Part shown: piece after piece, positions 50,887 to 60,008 of the stretch
Position numbering within the stretch: the stretch's first letter is position 1
Layout: every line of letters begins with the position of its first letter
Source: Flavisolibacter ginsengisoli DSM 18119
Lineage (GTDB): Bacteria > Bacteroidota > Bacteroidia > Chitinophagales > Chitinophagaceae
NCBI RefSeq assembly: GCF_900129295.1
Contig: NZ_FQUU01000004.1
Span: 124,001 to 188,000, forward strand
Direction: 5' to 3'
DNA: 64,000 bases
Translations under genes and position numbers: made by a program
The notes under the pieces: generated by a model
What the model was told of the DNA's origin: nothing
The model's database searches: none
The model's input: the letters and a program-made list of their open reading frames with translations, nothing else

Positions 50887-51885
50887 TTAAGAATTATAAA
50901 TCCGTGGGAGCTTTTGCGCCAGCTGCATCAGGTCAGCTATAACCATAGCTGTTATGGCTTCCAGTACAGGGGGCACACGTAAAGCTATACACAGGTCATG
51001 ACGTCCTTTTACCGAAAACTTTTCTACGGTTTGTGTATCCCAATTCCAGGATTCCTGCTCCTTAGGGGTTGACGATGTAGGCTTAACAACTACCCTGAAA
51101 ATAATATCATTACCATTGCTTATGCCTCCTACAACACCACCTGCATGATTTGTAACTGTGTGGCCAGATGCAGTGTCTATTGCATCGTTGTGGTCACTGC
51201 CAAACATTGTAGCTGCTTTAAAACCCGCACCAAATTCGATTCCTTTGATAGCAGGAATGGAGAATGCCGCATGGCTGATCAGGGATTCTACCGAGTTAAA
51301 GAAAGGCTCACCTAAACCAGACGGAACACCAGTCACATGGCATTCAACTATGCCACCTACCGAGTCTTTAGCGTCAATAGCCTTTTGTAATCCATTTTCA
51401 ACATCTTTTTCTCCCCCTACTTCGGTTATGTAGGCTGTAATAGTAATACCTGGTAATAACTTTTTTGCTACTACACCTGCCGCAACAAGGCATACAGTTA
51501 ATCTTCCACTAAAATGGCCCCCACCTCTGAAATCTTCAAAGCCACCATATTTTTCATGAGCTACAAAGTCAGCATGTCCGGGGCGTGGAATTGCCCTTTG
51601 CTTTTCATAATCCCCTGACCGTGTATTTTTGTTTTCGAATAAGATAGTTAATGGCGCACCAGTCGTTTTATTATTAAATACTCCTGTAATAAAAATGGGT
51701 TTATCATCTTCTTTCCTGGGAGTTGTTCCTTTTTGCAATCCTCCTTTCCTTCTTTCAATATCAATTACAAAATCATCTTCATTAATGGGTAAGCCTGCAG
51801 GAACTCCATCAAAGGTAATACCTACTGAGGGACCGTGAGATTCACCGAAAATTGTTGACCTGAATGATTGTCCAAAGGAATTCAT
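50887..51885 (-). CDS. aroC: Chorismate synthase
   Basis: A 332-residue protein with the FMN-dependent chorismate synthase signatures: SFGQSFRSTIFGESHGPSVG at the start, RPGHADFVAHEKYG, and the last block KGRHDLCIALRVPPVLEAIT. It makes chorismate from EPSP, the last shared aromatic step. It is somewhat shorter than many relatives (about 350-360), ending LPRIYNS. Last gene of the attenuator-led aromatic operon; it starts 19 bases after aroA. Confidence 0.95.
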   Translation of the reverse strand: MNSFGQSFRSTIFGESHGPSVGITFDGVPAGLPINEDDFVIDIERRKGGLQKGTTPRKEDDKPIFITGVFNNKTTGAPLTILFENKNTRSGDYEKQRAIPRPGHADFVAHEKYGGFEDFRGGGHFSGRLTVCLVAAGVVAKKLLPGITITAYITEVGGEKDVENGLQKAIDAKDSVGGIVECHVTGVPSGLGEPFFNSVESLISHAAFSIPAIKGIEFGAGFKAATMFGSDHNDAIDTASGHTVTNHAGGVVGGISNGNDIIFRVVVKPTSSTPKEQESWNWDTQTVEKFSVKGRHDLCIALRVPPVLEAITAMVIADLMQLAQKLPRIYNS

Positions 51886-51904: not shown

Positions 51905-53176
51905 TTATTTTAAAGATGCCTGTAATGAACTAAGGTGGTTGTAGAATTGAGGGTAAGATTTATTCACAGCTTCTGCCACATCAATTGTAATCTCCCCTTC
52001 TGCACCTAATGCTGCAACTGCACAGGCCATGGCGATCCTGTGATCATGGTGCGAATGAGTTGCCGCCGCATTAACTCCGGTTCCACCTTTGATCAGCATG
52101 AGATCTTCCTGTAGTGTGATCTCAATGCCTAGTTTGCCAAACTCCTCCTGTAAGGTTAAAGCGCGGTTACTTTCTTTGTGCGTCAAACGATGAACACCTG
52201 CAATCACAGAAGTGCCTTGGCAATAGGCTGCTAAACTTACTAATGGTGGGAACAGATCGGGGCAATCTGTTGCATCAAAATGAAAAGGTTTTAAATGGCT
52301 TTGATGAATCTCTATTTGGGAGTCCCTGATACTCATAATTACCCCGGTTTGCTGTAAAGCCTGTAGAATAGCTTTATCAGCCTGCGTGGAGAACATTTCT
52401 AAACCTTTTACAACAACATCGCCGGCAATGGCCCCTGCTACAAGTAAAAACGCGGCTCCGCTCCAATCACCCTCTACATTATAGTTAATGTCATTATTAG
52501 GATATGCTGAAATGGATTGCCTGGGAAAATAGAATTCTTCATACTGATGATTCAAGGGAACGTGCAACCCAAAGTCAGCCATCACTTTTAAAGTCAGGTC
52601 GATATAAGGTTTACTATTTAAATTTTTAACTGTAATGGTTATATCCCGGGCGTTTGCAGCTGCAAACGCCATTAATAGTCCTGTAAGAAATTGGGAGGAT
52701 AATGATCCATCAACAGTAATGTTAGCAGGAACAAGGGGGCCTTTTATTGTCAAAGGCAACAAACCATTATTTGTCTTTACATCTACCTGTAGCTTTGGCA
52801 AAACCTCGTTAAAGAATGACACTGGCCTTTTCAATAAACTGCCTGTTCCGGTAATAGAAATAGCTGTATCACTTATTGCGGCGATGGAGGTAAACATCCG
52901 AACCGACAACCCACTTTCACCACAATTGATACTTTCAGACACAGGTTTTACACCCTTACTTTCTATTATAATTGTTTCCCCAGATCTTTCTACAGTGGCT
53001 CCCAACTGTTTAATAATATCAAGTGCTGCATGATCATCTGCGGATACACCAGGATTGTGTAACACGGTCCTTCCTGTTTTGATCAGTGCAGCAGCACAAG
53101 CTCGTTGCATAGCACTCTTTGAGGCAGGTGCAGTGACTATTCCCTTTATCCTTCCCGGTTGTATAGTTATTCTCAT
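51905..53176 (-). CDS. aroA: 3-phosphoshikimate 1-carboxyvinyltransferase (EPSP synthase)
   Basis: A 423-residue protein with the two-domain EPSP synthase fold: N-terminal GIVTAPASKSAMQRACAAAL, NCGESGLSVRMFTSIAAI, VDGSLSSQFLTGLLMAFA and the late HDHRIAMACAVAALGAEG. It joins phosphoenolpyruvate to shikimate-3-phosphate. Its ATG overlaps the aroB stop by one base (TAATG), a mark of coupled translation. Confidence 0.95.
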   Translation of the reverse strand: MRITIQPGRIKGIVTAPASKSAMQRACAAALIKTGRTVLHNPGVSADDHAALDIIKQLGATVERSGETIIIESKGVKPVSESINCGESGLSVRMFTSIAAISDTAISITGTGSLLKRPVSFFNEVLPKLQVDVKTNNGLLPLTIKGPLVPANITVDGSLSSQFLTGLLMAFAAANARDITITVKNLNSKPYIDLTLKVMADFGLHVPLNHQYEEFYFPRQSISAYPNNDINYNVEGDWSGAAFLLVAGAIAGDVVVKGLEMFSTQADKAILQALQQTGVIMSIRDSQIEIHQSHLKPFHFDATDCPDLFPPLVSLAAYCQGTSVIAGVHRLTHKESNRALTLQEEFGKLGIEITLQEDLMLIKGGTGVNAAATHSHHDHRIAMACAVAALGAEGEITIDVAEAVNKSYPQFYNHLSSLQASLK

Positions 53177-54186
53177 TATAAAGTACTATATAATTGATCT
53201 ATTGCTATTTTCTCTATTACAGCCTTTCCTATCTTTTCCAATAAGATAAAGTTTATAGCATCTTTTTCCTTTTTCTTGTCCATTTTCAAAACGTTAATTA
53301 CTTTATCCTTATCATACAGGGCATATGTAGGCAGGCCATATTGTTCTAAGACCTTAGGGACTTTTTCAGCGTTTTTAAATCCAATTAACATACGGGATAG
53401 TTCTGATGCATAGGTCATTCCAATGGAGATGGACTGGCCATGAGAAAGTTCATATTGATTCTCCAGGGCGTGGCCAAGTGTATGGCCAAAGTTCAACAGC
53501 TTACGATCGCCCTTTTCAAATTCATCCTGCATTACCACCTTTGTTTTGATAAGAACATTCCTTCGAATAAGGCTGGAGGCTTCTCTTTTATTTTTTATAT
53601 AAAAGTTTAGATCATGTGATTCCAACTGCCTGAACATTGGTGCATCCTTTATACAGGCGTGTTTGATGATCTCTGCAAAACCATTTTGCCATTCAGCTTC
53701 CGGAAGTGTATTTAAAAACTGCAAATCCTGGAGAATGAATGCCGGCTGTTTTATTGCACCCACCAAATTCTTATAGACTCCAACATCAATTCCATTTTTC
53801 CCCCCTATGGAGGCATCAACAAGTGACAATAATGTTGTGGGAATGAATCCAAATGAAATACCTCTCATATAAATTGAGGCAATATAACCGGCGAGGTCTG
53901 TAATCACTCCTCCACCAATACCAATGAGTGTGGTCTGGCGATCTGCGCCCATCTCTATCAATTGTTCAATAACAGAATCTACCGTACCCTGTATCTTATA
54001 TTCCTCTCCGGGTTTTAAAACGATGGTATTCCAATTTTTAAACTTTTTGGTATGGGCAGCAAAAACATTTTCGTCGGTAAGAATGATGGCATTCTTTGCA
54101 TCAACCACTTCTTTCAAATGACTTATGCCCGACTCAAAAAAATAATTAACGGATGTACTGGTAAAGCGAAATGTTTTCTTATCCAT
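53176..54186 (-). CDS. aroB: 3-dehydroquinate synthase
   Basis: A 336-residue protein with NAD-binding GIGGGVITDLAGYIASIYMR, metal/substrate block TLLSLVDASIGGKNGIDVG and metal-ligand NFGHTLGHALENQYELSHGQ. It converts DAHP to 3-dehydroquinate. It overlaps its neighbours on both sides by one base (TAATG), upstream with the DAHP synthase gene and downstream with aroA. Confidence 0.95.
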   Translation of the reverse strand: MDKKTFRFTSTSVNYFFESGISHLKEVVDAKNAIILTDENVFAAHTKKFKNWNTIVLKPGEEYKIQGTVDSVIEQLIEMGADRQTTLIGIGGGVITDLAGYIASIYMRGISFGFIPTTLLSLVDASIGGKNGIDVGVYKNLVGAIKQPAFILQDLQFLNTLPEAEWQNGFAEIIKHACIKDAPMFRQLESHDLNFYIKNKREASSLIRRNVLIKTKVVMQDEFEKGDRKLLNFGHTLGHALENQYELSHGQSISIGMTYASELSRMLIGFKNAEKVPKVLEQYGLPTYALYDKDKVINVLKMDKKKEKDAINFILLEKIGKAVIEKIAIDQLYSTL

Positions 54187-55274
54187 TAATCATTAAAGAT
54201 TTTAGTTTGATGAGTAATGCTCTCGAGGTGAACAGCATCGAAATATTTAGTGATAAACTCTTTACTTAACCCTAATTTTTCGCCCTTGGTGCATGCCCGC
54301 TCCAGTATCTCATTCCATCTTTTTGTTTGAAGGATGGTTATGTTGTTCTCCTTTTTGTAGGTGGCAATCTTCTCTGCGATCTTCATTCGCTGGCTTAAAA
54401 TAAACATCAGTTCATCATCCAGGTGATTGATCTGTTGTCTTAACTTTTCGAGGGCAGCATGATACTCTTCTGAGGCCACATCTTCCTTTCTCCAAATGAT
54501 CTCTTCCAGCATGGCTGCCAATTGCTCGGGTGTAATTTGCTGTTTGGCATCGCTCCATGCATTGTCAGGATCAATATGGGTTTCAATCATTAAACCATCA
54601 TAGTCAAGATCAATGGCTTTTTGTGCAACTTCTAGCAATATATCGCGCCGACCGCAAATATGAGATGGATCATTAATGATAGGCAATTCCGGGTTCCGTC
54701 TTTTCATTTCAATGGCGAGGTGCCACATGGGGGCATTCCGGTATTCCGTATTGCCATAAGAAGAAAATCCACGATGGATCAACCCGATGTCTTTAATACC
54801 AGATTTAGCCACTCTTTCAACAGCTCCAGTCCATAATTCAAGATCTGGATTAATAGGATTTTTAATTAAGACCGGAACATTCACACCGCGAAGCGCATCA
54901 GCCACTTCCTGTACACTAAAAGGATTTACGGTTGTCCTGGCTCCTATCCACAATACATCAACATCAAAGTGAAGCGCATCTTCAACCTGTTTAGCAGTGG
55001 CAACTTCAATGGCAGTAGGTATGCCTGTGATTTCTTTTGCTTTTTGCAACCAGGGTAGCCCTTTTGTACCAATTCCTTCAAAACTTCCGGGCCTGGTTCG
55101 GGGTTTCCAGATACCTGCCCTTAAAATATCAACCTTACCTGTTTTGGCAAGTCTTGAGGCGGTTTCAATCACCTGCTCTTCTGTTTCAGCGCTGCAGGGA
55201 CCTGAGATGATCAATGGACGTTTATTCCATTTTTCCTTTACCAAATCGGCATTGACTTTTTGTTGTGTTTGCAT
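54186..55274 (-). CDS. Bifunctional DAHP synthase / chorismate mutase (type II)
   Basis: A 362-residue fusion. Residues about 15-255 are a DAHP synthase of the AroA-beta/KDO8P-like type: PLIISGPCSAETEEQVIETA, ILRAGIWKPRTRPGSFEGIG and INDPSHICGRRDILLEVAQK. Residues about 275-360 form an AroQ chorismate mutase (ALEKLRQQINHLDDELMFIL, then QTKRWNEILERACTKGEKLG). It carries the first pathway reaction and the branch to prephenate. In such fusions the mutase part often also mediates feedback by prephenate or chorismate. Central gene of the operon. Confidence 0.93.
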   Translation of the reverse strand: MQTQQKVNADLVKEKWNKRPLIISGPCSAETEEQVIETASRLAKTGKVDILRAGIWKPRTRPGSFEGIGTKGLPWLQKAKEITGIPTAIEVATAKQVEDALHFDVDVLWIGARTTVNPFSVQEVADALRGVNVPVLIKNPINPDLELWTGAVERVAKSGIKDIGLIHRGFSSYGNTEYRNAPMWHLAIEMKRRNPELPIINDPSHICGRRDILLEVAQKAIDLDYDGLMIETHIDPDNAWSDAKQQITPEQLAAMLEEIIWRKEDVASEEYHAALEKLRQQINHLDDELMFILSQRMKIAEKIATYKKENNITILQTKRWNEILERACTKGEKLGLSKEFITKYFDAVHLESITHQTKIFND

Positions 55275-55315: not shown

Positions 55316-56155
55316 TTATTTTAGTATTCTTTTGATCTTATTGGCATTCTCTATCAACTCCTGCAAATAATCATAATTCTCCTTTTCCAGGCATGCTTTA
55401 AACTTTCTTAACTGGCTTAAATGTTCATTTAATACATCAAGGACATTTTCCCGGTTTTGCATCAAAATCGGAACCCACATGGCCGCATTACTTTTTGCCA
55501 AACGGACGGTACTTTCAAAACCGGCACTTGCCAATTCAAATATGGCATCCTCTTCCCTCTCTTTTTCCAGGACTGTATTAGCCAGGGCAAAGGAAGTGAT
55601 GTGGGATATATGACTGATGTAGGCAACATGAACATCATGTTCTGCAGCAGTCATATAAACCAGGTGCATGCCCAATCTTCGGTACAGTTCTTCTACTATT
55701 GCCACCGCATCCTTATCAGATCTTTCCTGGTCACAGATGACGGTAGCTTTGCCAATGAAGGCGCCCTGTACGGCAGCTCCGGGTCCGCTGTATTCTGTAC
55801 CCCACATGGGGTGCGTGGCAACAAACCGGCTACGTTTTGGATGACTGGATACGGCAGCCAATATTCCATTTTTTATAGAACCAACGTCCATGATCACCTG
55901 CTGATCTACCTTATTTAAAATGGAAGGCAATAATTCTTCAACCGCATTTACAGGTATAGCAAGAATTACCAGGTCAGACTGACTTACTGCTTCTTCCCAC
56001 CCGGTGATCTCGTCCACTAGTCCCAGTGACAAAGCCTGGGCTGCATGTTCTTTATTAGATTCAACACCTATGATTTTGTCTGCCATTCCATTTTCCTTCA
56101 ATGCAATGGCAAAAGAGCCACCTATAAGTCCGGTACCAATTATCGAAACAATCAT
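55316..56155 (-). CDS. tyrA: Prephenate dehydrogenase
   Basis: The ATG at 56155 (MIVSIIGTGLIGGSFAIAL) is right: it starts on the NAD motif and overlaps the aminotransferase stop by four bases (ATGA). A start at 56221 would lie inside that gene. The 279-residue protein has FVATHPMWGTEYSGPGAAVQ and HDVHVAYISHISHITSFALA of the TyrA catalytic part. It oxidises prephenate to 4-hydroxyphenylpyruvate. No ACT or fused mutase domain is present; mutase activity comes from the neighbouring fusion. Confidence 0.93.
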   Translation of the reverse strand: MIVSIIGTGLIGGSFAIALKENGMADKIIGVESNKEHAAQALSLGLVDEITGWEEAVSQSDLVILAIPVNAVEELLPSILNKVDQQVIMDVGSIKNGILAAVSSHPKRSRFVATHPMWGTEYSGPGAAVQGAFIGKATVICDQERSDKDAVAIVEELYRRLGMHLVYMTAAEHDVHVAYISHISHITSFALANTVLEKEREEDAIFELASAGFESTVRLAKSNAAMWVPILMQNRENVLDVLNEHLSQLRKFKACLEKENYDYLQELIENANKIKRILK

Positions 56156-57327
56156 AGGTTTTGCTCCTTTGTTTTTTTGATCCTCTCTAATGCCTCGTTT
56201 ATTTTTTCTTCTGTTGTGCACAGGCTGATCCTTATGAATTGATCTCCATTGTTTCCAAAAATTCCACCGGGAGTAATGAATACACGTGCACTTTCCAATA
56301 CATGGTCACTTAATTGGTACCCATTTTCAAAATTTCCAGGTATCCTTGCCCAAACGAATAGTCCGACCTGTTCTTTATCGTAATAACAATTCAAAGTATC
56401 CAATAGCTCATAAACCTTTTGTCTCCGAACCGTATATATTTTGTTTAACTGGGCATGCCAATCTTCATCCAGGGCCAGGGCTTTGACAGCTGCCATTTGG
56501 ATAGGTTGAAACATACCACTATCCATATTACTTTTGAACCGAAGTATCTTTTCAATATTTTGGGCAGCCGCAGCAATCACTCCAACTCTCCATCCTGCCA
56601 TGTTATGTGATTTACTCAGCGAATTCAGTTCAATTGATACTTCTTTAGAACCCGGAATGCTCAATAAGCTTATTGGAGGCTCATTGTTCAGAATAAAACT
56701 ATAGGGATTGTCGTGGCAAATCAAAATGTTATTATTGATACCAAACTTCACAAGCTTCTCAAAAAGCTTATAATTCGCAGCCTGTCCTGTAGGCATATGA
56801 GGATAGTTGACCCACATTATTTTCACCTTGCTCAGGTCTCTGCTTTCCAATTCATTAAAATCAGGTTGCCATTGATTAGACTCCAACAGATCATACCCGA
56901 GGCAAACGCCTCCTGCTAATTGCGTAGCACTCCTGTAAGTGGGATAGCCAGGATTAGGTATCAAAACTTCATCACCCTCATTCAAAAAGGTCATGCTGAT
57001 GTGCATGATGCCTTCTTTAGATCCAATCAAAGGCAGTATTTCAGTATTCGGATCCAGGTGAACGGAATACCACTTCTGATACCAATCTCCAAAAGCTTTG
57101 CGTAAAGCAGGTATGCCCTTATAGTTTTGATATCCATGGACAGTGGGCTTTGAAGCCTCTTCCTGTAATGTTTTTATAACTTCAGGATGTGGAGGCATAT
57201 CGGGGCTGCCAATGCCCAGGTTTATAACATTTTCACCTTTTTGGTTTAATTCATCGATCTGGCGAAGCTTTTGAGAAAAATAATATTCTCCTATGCCATT
57301 TAATCTGTTAGCTACTTCAAGTTTCAT
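56152..57327 (-). CDS. PLP-dependent class I/II aminotransferase
   Basis: A 391-residue fold-type I aminotransferase. The PLP lysine lies in IELNSLSKSHNMAGWRVGV, the substrate-arginine region is near FIRISLCTTEEK, and the N-terminus has NLGIGSPDMPPHPEVI. In this operon, between prephenate dehydratase and prephenate dehydrogenase, it most likely performs the final transamination to phenylalanine and tyrosine. The LL-DAP-aminotransferase group looks similar, so the substrate is inferred. It overlaps pheA by four bases (ATGA). Confidence 0.88.
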   Translation of the reverse strand: MKLEVANRLNGIGEYYFSQKLRQIDELNQKGENVINLGIGSPDMPPHPEVIKTLQEEASKPTVHGYQNYKGIPALRKAFGDWYQKWYSVHLDPNTEILPLIGSKEGIMHISMTFLNEGDEVLIPNPGYPTYRSATQLAGGVCLGYDLLESNQWQPDFNELESRDLSKVKIMWVNYPHMPTGQAANYKLFEKLVKFGINNNILICHDNPYSFILNNEPPISLLSIPGSKEVSIELNSLSKSHNMAGWRVGVIAAAAQNIEKILRFKSNMDSGMFQPIQMAAVKALALDEDWHAQLNKIYTVRRQKVYELLDTLNCYYDKEQVGLFVWARIPGNFENGYQLSDHVLESARVFITPGGIFGNNGDQFIRISLCTTEEKINEALERIKKTKEQNL

Positions 57328-58148
57328 ACTTTATTCTTTGCATTTCCATTTTTATAAACTCCATAGATCTTTATGGCTTCTGTAATTTGCTGCATGCCAT
57401 TGATAACAGCTTCAAACTGTTGAATGGATTCAAATTCCATGTCAGCATGAAAATTATATTTCCAGTCACTTCCAGGTATAGGGAAGCTTTGCAGTTTGCT
57501 TAGATTGATACCCCCATTTGCTATGGTAGTTAAAACTTTGGCCAGACTGCCCTTTGAATGATCGGTTGAAAAACTGACAGAGGCTTTATCTGCATCCATT
57601 TGGTTCACTGCCTCCCTGTTTAGCACTAAGAACCTGGTATAATTATGCTTTTCAGTATGTATATTTTCTGCAAGAATATCAAGTTCAAATAACTCGGCAG
57701 CTAATTTTCCAGCTATTGCCGCTGTATGTTTATTCTTATGCTGGTGAATTTTTTTGGCACTTAAAGCCGTATCCTCTGTTTCTACCAGTTTCCAGTTATA
57801 TTTTACCAGGTATTCCAGGCATTGCTGAATAGCCATGGGGTGAGAATGAACTTCATGGATATCTTCGAGCACTACTCCGGGGTTTACCAACAAATGTTGC
57901 CTGATAGGAAGGTAAACTTCCCCGGTAATTTTTAAATTGGATCTTTGCAGCAGGTTATAATTTGGCAGTATACTACCTGCAATGGAGTTTTCAATTGCCA
58001 TGATACCAGCATCTGTTTTCCCGCTTGTAGTGAGGTCAACAACTTCCCTGAATGTAGCACAAGTGGCTACAGAAATCTCTTTACCAAAAAACTGCCTTGC
58101 TGCTATCTGGTGAAAACTGCCTTCGAATCCCTGTATTGAAACTTTCAT
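57324..58148 (-). CDS. pheA: Prephenate dehydratase with ACT domain
   Basis: The ATG at 58148 (MKVSIQGFEGSFHQIAARQF) fits the family. One at 58154 is possible, while one at 58178 would lie inside the attenuator terminator. The 274-residue protein has the dehydratase domain (GIMAIENSIAGSILPNYNLL and VHSHPMAIQQCLEYL) and an ACT domain (DHSKGSLAKVLTTIANGGIN, then KYNFHADMEFE). It makes phenylpyruvate and is likely feedback-inhibited by Phe through the ACT domain. First structural gene of the operon. Confidence 0.93.
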   Translation of the reverse strand: MKVSIQGFEGSFHQIAARQFFGKEISVATCATFREVVDLTTSGKTDAGIMAIENSIAGSILPNYNLLQRSNLKITGEVYLPIRQHLLVNPGVVLEDIHEVHSHPMAIQQCLEYLVKYNWKLVETEDTALSAKKIHQHKNKHTAAIAGKLAAELFELDILAENIHTEKHNYTRFLVLNREAVNQMDADKASVSFSTDHSKGSLAKVLTTIANGGINLSKLQSFPIPGSDWKYNFHADMEFESIQQFEAVINGMQQITEAIKIYGVYKNGNAKNKV

Positions 58149-58163
58149 AATCATATTGAAAAC

Positions 58164-58189
58164 AAAAATCCCGACCATTTGGCCGGGAT
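58164..58189 (-). terminator. Attenuator terminator before pheA
   Basis: On the minus strand ATCCCGGCC (58189-58181), loop AAAT, GGTCGGGAT (58176-58168), then a T-run. The stem has eight standard pairs and one G-T wobble. It ends 16 bases before the pheA start, where a simple operon terminator would make no sense. Confidence 0.85.
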
Positions 58190-58217
58190 CTCTTATGCTG
58201 AATTGGTTTACTCATTT

Positions 58218-58292
58218 TCAACAAAAGCAGTCCCGGCTCCTACTAAAATAGAAGAAACTAAAATAGCAACCGTATGCTTTTGTAATTGTCAT
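58218..58292 (-). CDS. Phe/Tyr-rich leader peptide (24 residues)
   Basis: ATG at 58292, stop TGA at 58220-58218. Residues 7-16 read YGCYFSFFYF: four Phe and three Tyr in ten codons, with one more Phe near the end. The peptide has no other recognisable feature and is too short for ordinary gene finders. Its end lies 70 bases before pheA. Its likely job is to let translation speed sense charged tRNA-Phe and tRNA-Tyr. A DNA direct repeat TATTTTAGT (around codons 10-12 and 15-17) lies inside it. Confidence 0.75.
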   Translation of the reverse strand: MTITKAYGCYFSFFYFSRSRDCFC

Positions 58293-58299
58293 TGCCTGA

Positions 58300-58330
58300 C
58301 AAATATAGAAATCATTTCAAAATGAACAAA
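58300..58330 (-). promoter_or_regulatory. Canonical promoter of the aromatic operon
   Basis: TTTG (58330-58327), exactly 19 bases, then TATATTTG (58307-58300) on the minus strand: a textbook Bacteroidota promoter. The box ends seven bases before the leader-peptide ATG, so the leader would be translated from the very 5' end of the transcript. Confidence 0.7.
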
Positions 58331-58334
58331 TTTT

Positions 58335-60008
58335 TTATCTGCGGACAGAATCAGCTTCATTCATGCGTAATCTTCTGCCTTTATATTTCTTTCCATCGAT
58401 TGATTCGATCATTTTATTAGCTACCTGTTTATCAATTTCGATCCAGCTATTCATTTCCTTCATATCTATTCTGCCCAAAACATCTTTAGAAAGATCACTC
58501 ATATCCAGAATAAATTGCAGGAAGCTTGCTTTATAAAATCCATCCTTTGTACCAAGGTTAATAAAGAGCCTGGTTGAGTTTCCTCCTCCACTAAATTCCC
58601 TTCCTCTCGTATCGCGTCGCTTATCTCCCAATCTCTCCCCTCTGCCCTCAGGTGCAGTTCTTGACCTGTCATCTCTTCTTTCCCTGGTATTAAGATCCTC
58701 GGAATTTTCGTAATATTTTAAAAACCTGTCAAATTCCAGTGCTGCTACTCTTTTTAGCACTTCATCCTTGCTTACATCAGCAAACTTTTCCTGGAGCATA
58801 GGAAGATAGGTTTCATAATCTCCATGGCTGATGTCGGTTTGTAAAAGCTTATCCATAAAATAAAAGAATTGCTTTCTGCACACATCCTTTCCTGAAGGTA
58901 TTTCCAGTTTATGGAAAGGCACCTGAACCATTCTTTCGATCTGCCGGATCCTACCTGTTTCCCGGGTATGAACAATAGACATGCAAACACCCGTCTTTCC
59001 TGCCCTACCAGTTCTGCCGCTTCTATGTGTGTACACTTCAACATCGTCTGGTAGTTCAAAATTTATAACATGGGTAATGCCCTGGACATCAATGCCCCTT
59101 GCAGCTACATCCGTGGCTATTAATAGTTGTAAGGTTTTTTCCCTAAACTCATCCATTACCTTATTTCGTTGTGCCTGAGTCAGGTCACCATGTAAAGCAT
59201 CAATATCATATCCCTCGCGTGTAAGTTTTTCAGCTATTTCCTGTGCATCAGCTTTTGTACGGGTAAAAACAATCGCATACATCCCAGGGTTAAAATCTAT
59301 GAGTCTTTTTAATGCTTCATACCTATGGGAAGCCGAGGTTACAAAATATTGATGGTCAACATTTTTATTGGCAGTATTCATTTTACCCACCGTAATCTCT
59401 ACAGGGGTCTGCATATACTTTTTACTCACCTTCCTAATCTCGGGGGGCATGGTAGCACTAAAAAGCCAGGTGCTGTCACGTTGAGGGGTATTTTGTAATA
59501 TAAATTCGATGTCTTCCTGGAATCCCATATTCAGCATTTCATCTGCTTCATCCAGAACCACATATTTTATTTGTTCAAGATTAATAGCTTTTCTTTCAAT
59601 AAGGTCTATTAAACGCCCGGGGGTGGCCACTATAATATGAACTCCCCTACGGATATCTCTTATTTGCATGGAAATGGAAGAGCCGCCATAGACTGCAACC
59701 ACATGAATCCCTGGCATGTGCTTTTTAAACAATTCAATCTCATTCACGATCTGCATGCACAGTTCACGTGTAGGACATATAATTAATGCCTGTGGATATT
59801 TTTCTTTAGATTCAATTAATTGCAATAATGGCAAACCAAAGGCAGCCGTTTTACCAGTTCCGGTTTGTGCTAAACCTATCAGGTCTTTGGTGCCTGATAA
59901 CAACACAGGGATAGCTTTTTCCTGGATGGGTGTGGGTTGGGTAAAACCTAGTTCACCTACAGACTTTAATAAATTTTCCTGCAGGCCTAACTCTTCAAAC
60001 GTACTCAT
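58335..60008 (-). CDS. DEAD-box ATP-dependent RNA helicase (DeaD/CsdA-like)
   Basis: The ATG at 60008 (MSTFEELGLQENLLKSVGEL) is preferred; the upstream ATG at 60035 overlaps the promoter box. The 557-residue protein has Q-motif FTQPTPIQ, Walker A AQTGTGKTAA, the DEAD box VVLDEADEMLNMGF, motif III SAT and motif VI HRSGRTGRAGKTG. A charged linker (about 440-480, rich in Arg/Asp/Gly) leads to a DbpA-type RNA-binding domain (about 485-557; LFINLGTKDGFY and KGRRLRMNEAD). It unwinds RNA in ribosome assembly or cold adaptation. It ends only about 5 bases before the aromatic-operon promoter element. Confidence 0.93.
   Translation of the reverse strand: MSTFEELGLQENLLKSVGELGFTQPTPIQEKAIPVLLSGTKDLIGLAQTGTGKTAAFGLPLLQLIESKEKYPQALIICPTRELCMQIVNEIELFKKHMPGIHVVAVYGGSSISMQIRDIRRGVHIIVATPGRLIDLIERKAINLEQIKYVVLDEADEMLNMGFQEDIEFILQNTPQRDSTWLFSATMPPEIRKVSKKYMQTPVEITVGKMNTANKNVDHQYFVTSASHRYEALKRLIDFNPGMYAIVFTRTKADAQEIAEKLTREGYDIDALHGDLTQAQRNKVMDEFREKTLQLLIATDVAARGIDVQGITHVINFELPDDVEVYTHRSGRTGRAGKTGVCMSIVHTRETGRIRQIERMVQVPFHKLEIPSGKDVCRKQFFYFMDKLLQTDISHGDYETYLPMLQEKFADVSKDEVLKRVAALEFDRFLKYYENSEDLNTRERRDDRSRTAPEGRGERLGDKRRDTRGREFSGGGNSTRLFINLGTKDGFYKASFLQFILDMSDLSKDVLGRIDMKEMNSWIEIDKQVANKMIESIDGKKYKGRRLRMNEADSVRR

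Follow-up and report, generated by a model that had tools for sequence, protein, structure and literature searches.

Among the closest known counterparts of the system described here is the E. coli pheL attenuator, in which a leader peptide rich in the operon's end product and three alternative helices act on a terminator just before pheA. The ilv and thr attenuators each respond to more than one end product through a single leader, and in the leaderless cysteine attenuators of mycobacteria the leader ORF opens at, or close to, the 5′ end. The authors of a 2010 survey state that they were aware of demonstrated leader-peptide systems in Proteobacteria and Actinobacteria alone until their own case from the Firmicutes (PMC2965389). 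For the Bacteroidota, described as a phylum without Shine-Dalgarno sites (PMC6847099), a study of F. psychrophilum from 2021 reports strong clues of leader-peptide attenuation before amino acid operons, together with a structured element, lacking Rfam hits, before pheA in other genera of the Flavobacteriaceae (PMC9723704). Among the papers listed by searches of the open-licence literature for leader-peptide or ribosome-mediated attenuation in Bacteroidetes, or with tyrosine codons, none was more specific. The mechanism itself is a known one that has hardly been described in Bacteroidota.

Here we analysed a window of 64,000 nt from Flavisolibacter ginsengisoli DSM 18119 (NZ_FQUU01000004.1, positions 124,001–188,000, forward strand), on the minus strand of which a very probable Phe/Tyr attenuator lies between a DEAD-box helicase gene and pheA. 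The locus shares with pheL the end-product-rich leader peptide, the set of three alternative helices and the position of the terminator, but it differs in its mixed Phe and Tyr codons, in the seven genes of its operon and in a leader ORF that is predicted to be nearly leaderless. Like the ilv and thr leaders it would sense several end products, the pair here being Phe and Tyr, whereas the mycobacterial cases belong to another phylum and another amino acid and a classical terminator switch is present here. With the Flavobacteriaceae pheA element it has the phylum, the first gene and the proposed mechanism in common, although the description of that element names neither Phe/Tyr specificity nor Chitinophagaceae (PMC9723704); judged from this description, the two are likely to be homologous. 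The near-leaderless start, the pairing of Phe with Tyr and the doubled form found in Chitinophaga may be what a specialist would not expect. The Rfam family Phe_leader (RF01859) scores 25.4 bits at the locus, short of its gathering score of 55, and it gives the ilv leader from this genome a better score (38.9 bits, also below the gathering score), which makes the weak match unspecific.

An earlier note on this DNA had described a promoter, a leader of 24 codons, seven of which (within codons 7–16) encode Phe or Tyr, and the complementary segments GCCGGGA and TCCCGGC. The leader and both segments agree with the minus strand at every base (Table 1), and the seven codons are found in the sequence (Tyr or Phe at codons 7, 10, 11, 13, 14, 15 and 16, with a further Phe at codon 23). 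The promoter is likewise present and, by its sequence, fits the Bacteroidota sigma-A type, for which the published consensus is TTTG at −33 and TAnnTTTG at −7 (PMC7366714, PMC9723704); the spacer between TTTG and TATATTTG is 19 nt, and a sigma-70 scan gave no promoter at this site on the minus strand. All seven genes of the operon as proposed in the note were confirmed by NCBIfam matches. The start codon of pheA is the ATG at 58154 or at 58148, the listed ORF extending to 58178 and thus into the terminator. Among the 84 of loci L031–L130 from the window's family that reach 8.7 kb, the order pheA-aminotransferase-tyrA-DAHPS/CM-aroB-aroA is found in 73, and aroC comes next in 37.

Table 1. Features of the Phe/Tyr attenuator and its operon, numbered from the first letter of the window.
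Feature	Position	Strand	Basis or remark
DEAD-box helicase gene	end at 58335	-	about 140 bp upstream of terminator hairpin
-33 element TTTG	58327..58330	-	sequence; consensus as described in PMC7366714 and PMC9723704
-7 box TATATTTG (TAnnTTTG)	58300..58307	-	sequence
Predicted transcription start	58295	-	inferred from -7 box; 5′ UTR about 3 nt
24-codon Phe/Tyr leader peptide ORF, MTITKAYGCYFSFFYFSRSRDCFC and stop TGA	58218..58292	-	sequence, relatives
Segment 1, ACAAAAGCA, partner of segment 2	58275..58283	-	fold, pair counts, duplex test
Segment 2, GCCGGGA C TGCTTTTGT, antiterminator 5′ arm and segment 1 partner	58221..58237	-	folds
GCCGGGA within segment 2	58231..58237	-	sequence
Segment 3, ATCCCGGCC, terminator 5′ arm and antiterminator 3′ arm	58181..58189	-	folds, relatives
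Segment 4, GGTCGGGAT, with T run	58164..58176	-	terminator scan, relatives
Terminator stem and T run, TCCCGGC in 5′ arm	58164..58193	-	terminator scan, sequence
pheA, prephenate dehydratase	57324..58154	-	best NCBIfam matches prephenate dehydratases, below curated cut-offs
PLP-dependent aminotransferase	56152..57327	-	below curated cut-offs, named from best match
tyrA, prephenate dehydrogenase	55316..56161	-	over cut-off; start chosen inside longer listed ORF
DAHP synthase with chorismate mutase domain	54186..55274	-	below curated cut-offs, named from best match
aroB	53176..54186	-	over cut-off
aroA (EPSP synthase)	51905..53176	-	over cut-off
aroC (chorismate synthase)	50887..51885	-	over cut-off

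The short ORF with its run of codons for the end products of the operon is followed, ahead of pheA, by an intrinsic terminator; no other terminator-like site occurs in 801 bp, where chance would give 0.4. The two hairpins of the earlier note are mutually exclusive, as it had held: GCCGGGA has its exact complement, TCCCGGC, in the terminator arm, and the folds agree. The antiterminator (2:3), which excludes the terminator (3:4) and which does not exceed column shuffles on a plain alignment (see below), extends past GCCGGGA, since CTT pairs with AAG and TGTTGAA with TTCAGCA. A further helix, absent from that note, is formed by segments 1 and 2, ACAAAAGCA pairing with TGCTTTTGT alongside additional inner pairs. 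This protector helix flanks the codon run and completes the classical attenuator set with 2:3 and 3:4. From segment 1 to the T run the RNA folds into the 1:2 hairpin and the 3:4 terminator at −43.9 kcal/mol, compared with −24.3 for shuffled sequences (z −5.3), and the fragment without segments 1 and 4 folds into the 2:3 antiterminator at −24.2 kcal/mol, compared with −12.7 (z −4.1).

Within the window the best count is seven Phe/Tyr codons per 12, which is reached by 18 of 650 shuffles, and the codon run on its own is therefore only moderately rare. We sought PheA in 195 genomes of the window's family, the Chitinophagaceae, with 133 positive and 62 without a match, and took 130 of the 134 PheA places (leaving out G041, G075, G150 and the second copy in G148); among the matches listed, the genera that carry a closely related PheA include Ferruginibacter, Agriterribacter, Terrimonas, Cnuella, Arachidicoccus, Hydrotalea and Chitinophaga. 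At least eight Phe/Tyr codons per 12 occur in the 480 nt upstream of pheA in 116 of the 130 family loci, compared with 4 of 650 Markov-shuffled sequences, and at least seven in 125, compared with 18 of 650. A threshold of six is loose (it is reached by 85 of the 650 shuffles), which is why the counts are given at eight. The Phe/Tyr leader before pheA is not a product of chance. In a second, named set that overlaps the first (16 of its 78 loci with enough upstream DNA repeat earlier ones), the leader is present at threshold seven in 69 loci and absent from nine.

A hairpin with a T run was located by script after 124 of 128 family leaders; those of L030 and L064 are poor and that of L124 is of another kind. 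The earlier note had expected relatives that carry the operon to carry the leader and the alternative hairpins as well, and leader, terminator and alternative pairings do recur throughout the family. Only two of the 130 loci, L100 and L108, have no leader at the loose threshold, and their PheA proteins are sisters in the PheA tree (100/98), such that the leader was probably lost in a single event.

The pairing potential of the switch helices was compared with shuffled sequences in 124 loci, the four of the 128 leaders without a scripted terminator being left out. The 2:3 duplex has a mean energy of −18.7 against −7.8 when shuffled, with no more than 5 of 100 shuffles as good in 117 of 124 loci, and the 1:2 duplex one of −15.5 against −9.9, with 88 loci at this level and 36 in which it is no better than the shuffles. 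Partners swapped between loci pair more weakly (2:3, −15.0; 1:2, −12.1). Changes that preserve the helices were examined in an alignment of 76 leaders, hand-picked from 101 prepared sequences, many of the 25 left out being more divergent; the 101 had themselves been prepared by setting aside 13 named loci, peptides already represented and sequences shorter than 90 or longer than 150 nt. In this alignment the covariation score of the 1:2 helix is 0.268, a value reached by none of 500 shuffles and by no slid version (at most 0.176), although the number of 1:2 pairs with two-sided changes does not exceed column shuffles (188 of 500 as high). Two-sided changes are kept in five of the eight pairs of the 3:4 terminator. 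For the 2:3 helix the covariation score on the MAFFT alignment is not above column shuffles (181 of 500 as high), because the helix hardly varies; it is paired in 82.6% of cells and tops every slid version both in cells paired and in covariation score.

Natural variants of the helices point the same way. Where segment 3 reads TCCCCCG, TCCTCCG or TCCCGCC, segments 2 and 4 are mostly altered to match. The terminator arms of the 30 loci without TCCCGG pair with their own leaders at −17.0 and with the 91 consensus leaders at −12.3; 17 of these 30 arms are specific to their own leader at the 5% level and 13 are not. In a second class of leaders GCAAATAC with GTATTTGC takes the place of ACAAAAGCA with TGCTTTTGT, so that both arms of the 1:2 helix have changed together.

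This anatomy, and the conservation of leader, terminator and alternative pairings in the family, support the pheL-type logic that the note had proposed, and the locus is very probably a ribosome-mediated transcription attenuator of the E. coli pheL/trpL/hisL type sensing charged tRNA-Phe and tRNA-Tyr. RNA polymerase would initiate only a few nucleotides upstream of the leader AUG, and a ribosome would load almost at the 5′ end and trail the polymerase. If either Phe-tRNA or Tyr-tRNA were scarce, the ribosome would stall at codons 10–15 and cover segment 1, leaving GCCGGGA-TGCTTTTGT free to form the antiterminator with segment 3, and pheA and the six genes behind it would be transcribed. With both charged tRNAs ample, it would instead reach the stop codon and cover segment 2, and segments 3 and 4 would form the terminator. 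When no ribosome is present, segment 1 would pair with segment 2 first, favouring termination. A shortage of either Phe or Tyr would then stall the ribosome in the useful stretch, which amounts to an OR logic.

Folding with an assumed ribosome footprint agrees with this scheme, in that a stall frees segment 2 and a ribosome at the stop codon covers it. With the ribosome masked, the probability of the 2:3 helix is 0.98–1.0 for an A site at codons 4–15, 0.57 at codon 16 and 0 at codons 17 to 25, the assumed footprint covering GCCGGGA from codon 17 on. The Phe/Tyr codons 10–15 thus sit where stalling pays, much as the note had placed the stall at codons 10–14. In equilibrium folding of the full transcript the terminator is favoured at every ribosome position (probability of 3:4, 0.94–1.0) and, in a transcript that ends after segment 3 and carries no ribosome, 2:3 outcompetes 1:2 (0.98). 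The switch must therefore be kinetic, as the decision also is in other attenuators.

The most serious alternative concerns the signal. E. coli pheL uses Phe, and across the family leaders Phe exceeds Tyr (median 6 versus 3 per leader), so in practice just one amino acid, such as Phe, might be sensed with the other codons as passengers. We consider this unlikely, if well worth bearing in mind, as 125 of the 128 leaders contain at least two Phe and at least two Tyr (three are short of two of one of them), the first Phe and the first Tyr from codon 7 onward are no more than three codons apart in 101 of 127, and pheA and tyrA share one operon. The same composition, and an operon that makes both amino acids, support the note's suggestion that one leader senses the two. 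Sensing of Trp was considered as well, given that the operon holds the common pathway, and was rejected: Trp accounts for 0.7% of the residues in the leaders, and 21 of the 128 contain any.

The conserved product could also be a small protein acting in trans, as has been reported for the leader peptide peTrpL (PMC7298713), and the aromatic stretch is indeed conserved. The 3′ part of the ORF, however, is kept as nucleotides and ends in unrelated C-termini (RPGMLLL, SRDCFC, SRVVFA), the block CCGGGANTGCTTTTGTTG being translated in one frame as SRDCFC, in another as RPGMLLL, or else in the third. Within the ORF, CCGGG or CGGGG occupies frame 0 in 59 leaders, frame 2 in 24 and frame 1 in 10; it follows the stop in three of 128, and the exact pattern is absent from 32 of 128. 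It is thus the RNA that is conserved across all three frames and not the peptide, which makes a trans-acting product very improbable. Marginally less probable still is that the hairpin is merely the terminator of the DEAD-box helicase gene and the short ORF an accident: the helicase gene lies on the same strand, ends a short way before the hairpin and could share the terminator, but the promoter sits after its stop codon, and leader, hairpins and matching changes are kept before pheA across the family. Finally, a direct RNA sensor (riboswitch or T-box) in place of the ribosome would suit a long and structured leader but is hardly credible, the codon run being kept together with the switch helices; Rfam gave no family at gathering score at the attenuator, with no T-box among 11 weak matches up to E 10, and none above gathering score at seven other loci (cut-off E 1).

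For the ribosome-mediated attenuator, the start of the transcript deserves separate attention. The −7 box of the window ends 7 nt upstream of the leader ATG (58292). In F. psychrophilum this box is described at −12 to −5 (PMC9723704), and a published passage on F. johnsoniae promoters gives a spacing of 4–5 nt; the 5′ UTR is accordingly predicted to be about 3 nt, and from this promoter proximity the leader ORF should be nearly leaderless. The earlier note had overlooked how near the promoter is to the leader ORF. In the family, 104 of the 121 leaders with a box have it 4–10 nt before the ATG, equivalent to a predicted 5′ UTR of 0–6 nt, compared with 7 of 36 elsewhere in the phylum (the start codon being taken as the last ATG preceding the Phe/Tyr run); seven more family leaders are boxless. 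The seven outgroup leaders are those with the box at no more than 10 nt, the other 29 having it at 15–35 nt, and eight more are boxless.

A control from the source genome (400 kb and the window, 199 genes) yielded 17 ordinary genes behind a TTG...TAnnTTTG promoter, a small sample in which the promoter lies no more than 10 nt from the start in 4, so a short distance is not unique to the leader in this genome. Because the control is small and short distances are not rare in it, we place the weight on the outgroup comparison and on published figures: leaderless transcripts are given as 5.5% in F. psychrophilum (PMC9723704), about 3.7% of 5′ UTRs as shorter than 10 nt in a published passage on B. 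thetaiotaomicron, and 87% of leaders as longer than 10 nt in one on F. johnsoniae. On balance we lean towards the view that the Chitinophagaceae attenuator is a near-leaderless Phe/Tyr OR sensor, engaged by the ribosome at its extreme 5′ end and doubled in Chitinophaga. It would be an instance of attenuation in a phylum devoid of Shine-Dalgarno sites, and its near-leaderless start would make testable how transcription and translation are coupled if ribosomes load right at the 5′ end.

Outside the family, a PheA search matched 340 of 395 genomes. We chose 58 outgroup loci (the best-scoring and 40 hand-picked among the matches listed, minus eight repeating family genomes), a sample that leans towards better PheA matches. 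Of these 58 loci, which come from other families in the phylum, 44 carry a Phe/Tyr leader at the loose threshold of six. A covariance model built from nothing but family leaders matches 35 of the 58 with an E of at most 0.004. When run against the whole genomes of 38 relatives, the model matched 20 at E 1.4e-5 or better, all of them in the family; the strongest match in 15 genomes of the order's other families has an E of 0.0044. The attenuator looks old in Bacteroidota, its spread outside the family being sampled only. The phylum gains a conserved example of an attenuator with matching changes and a covariance model that reaches beyond the family. A second match of the model in the source genome (contig 8, E 0.001) was rejected as a T-rich stretch with a terminator; the next gene of at least 120 aa on the same strand starts about 2.5 kb away.

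In Chitinophaga, two leaders and two terminators stand upstream of pheA in all 16 loci among the matches listed (L303, L305, L307–L316, L318, L319, L321 and L322). Two Phe/Tyr leaders in series, each with its own terminator, were also seen by eye in L114, L126 and L128 (genus g6), where the second leader begins no more than about 30 nt from the first T run, and in L140–L142 (family f9). The doubled attenuator in Chitinophaga could, if true, make the response steeper or split it into two steps, and with the tandem copies the contribution of the second attenuator becomes testable. The PheA proteins of L140–L142 nest in the Chitinophagaceae clade (100/99), just after the tandem genus g6, in a tree of 83 rows in which L142 is on a long branch and bootstrap is not settled; this nesting suggests that the operon was transferred together with its attenuators.

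Leaders of other kinds were seen in the source genome. Upstream of hisG (L197 / L205), the leader VKKILVHIHHHVLALG begins with GTG 7 nt downstream of the −7 box and has, by eye, a terminator-like hairpin behind it; it is likely a His attenuator. A Trp leader, MVQLINKQWWWHTNSNGVL, precedes a gene of the anthranilate-synthase-I type (L206 / L199), again with a terminator-like hairpin by eye; its box lies 36 nt upstream, and a small ORF, MPCPLHICIRNGTVN, beginning 5 nt after the box, overlaps the start of the leader. An Ile/Val-rich leader, MITKGTNNIFYSVIKIIVVIIISGLTGGGFYL (L204, 3474–3572), with a strong hairpin and a T run, is found before the acetolactate synthase gene cluster, and a Thr/Ile-rich short ORF, MAKHSFHISLSLQRFFAVGSTTTIITTTRKGCI (L203, 1926–2027), which begins 8 nt after the box TATTTTGT, before a homoserine dehydrogenase fusion gene.
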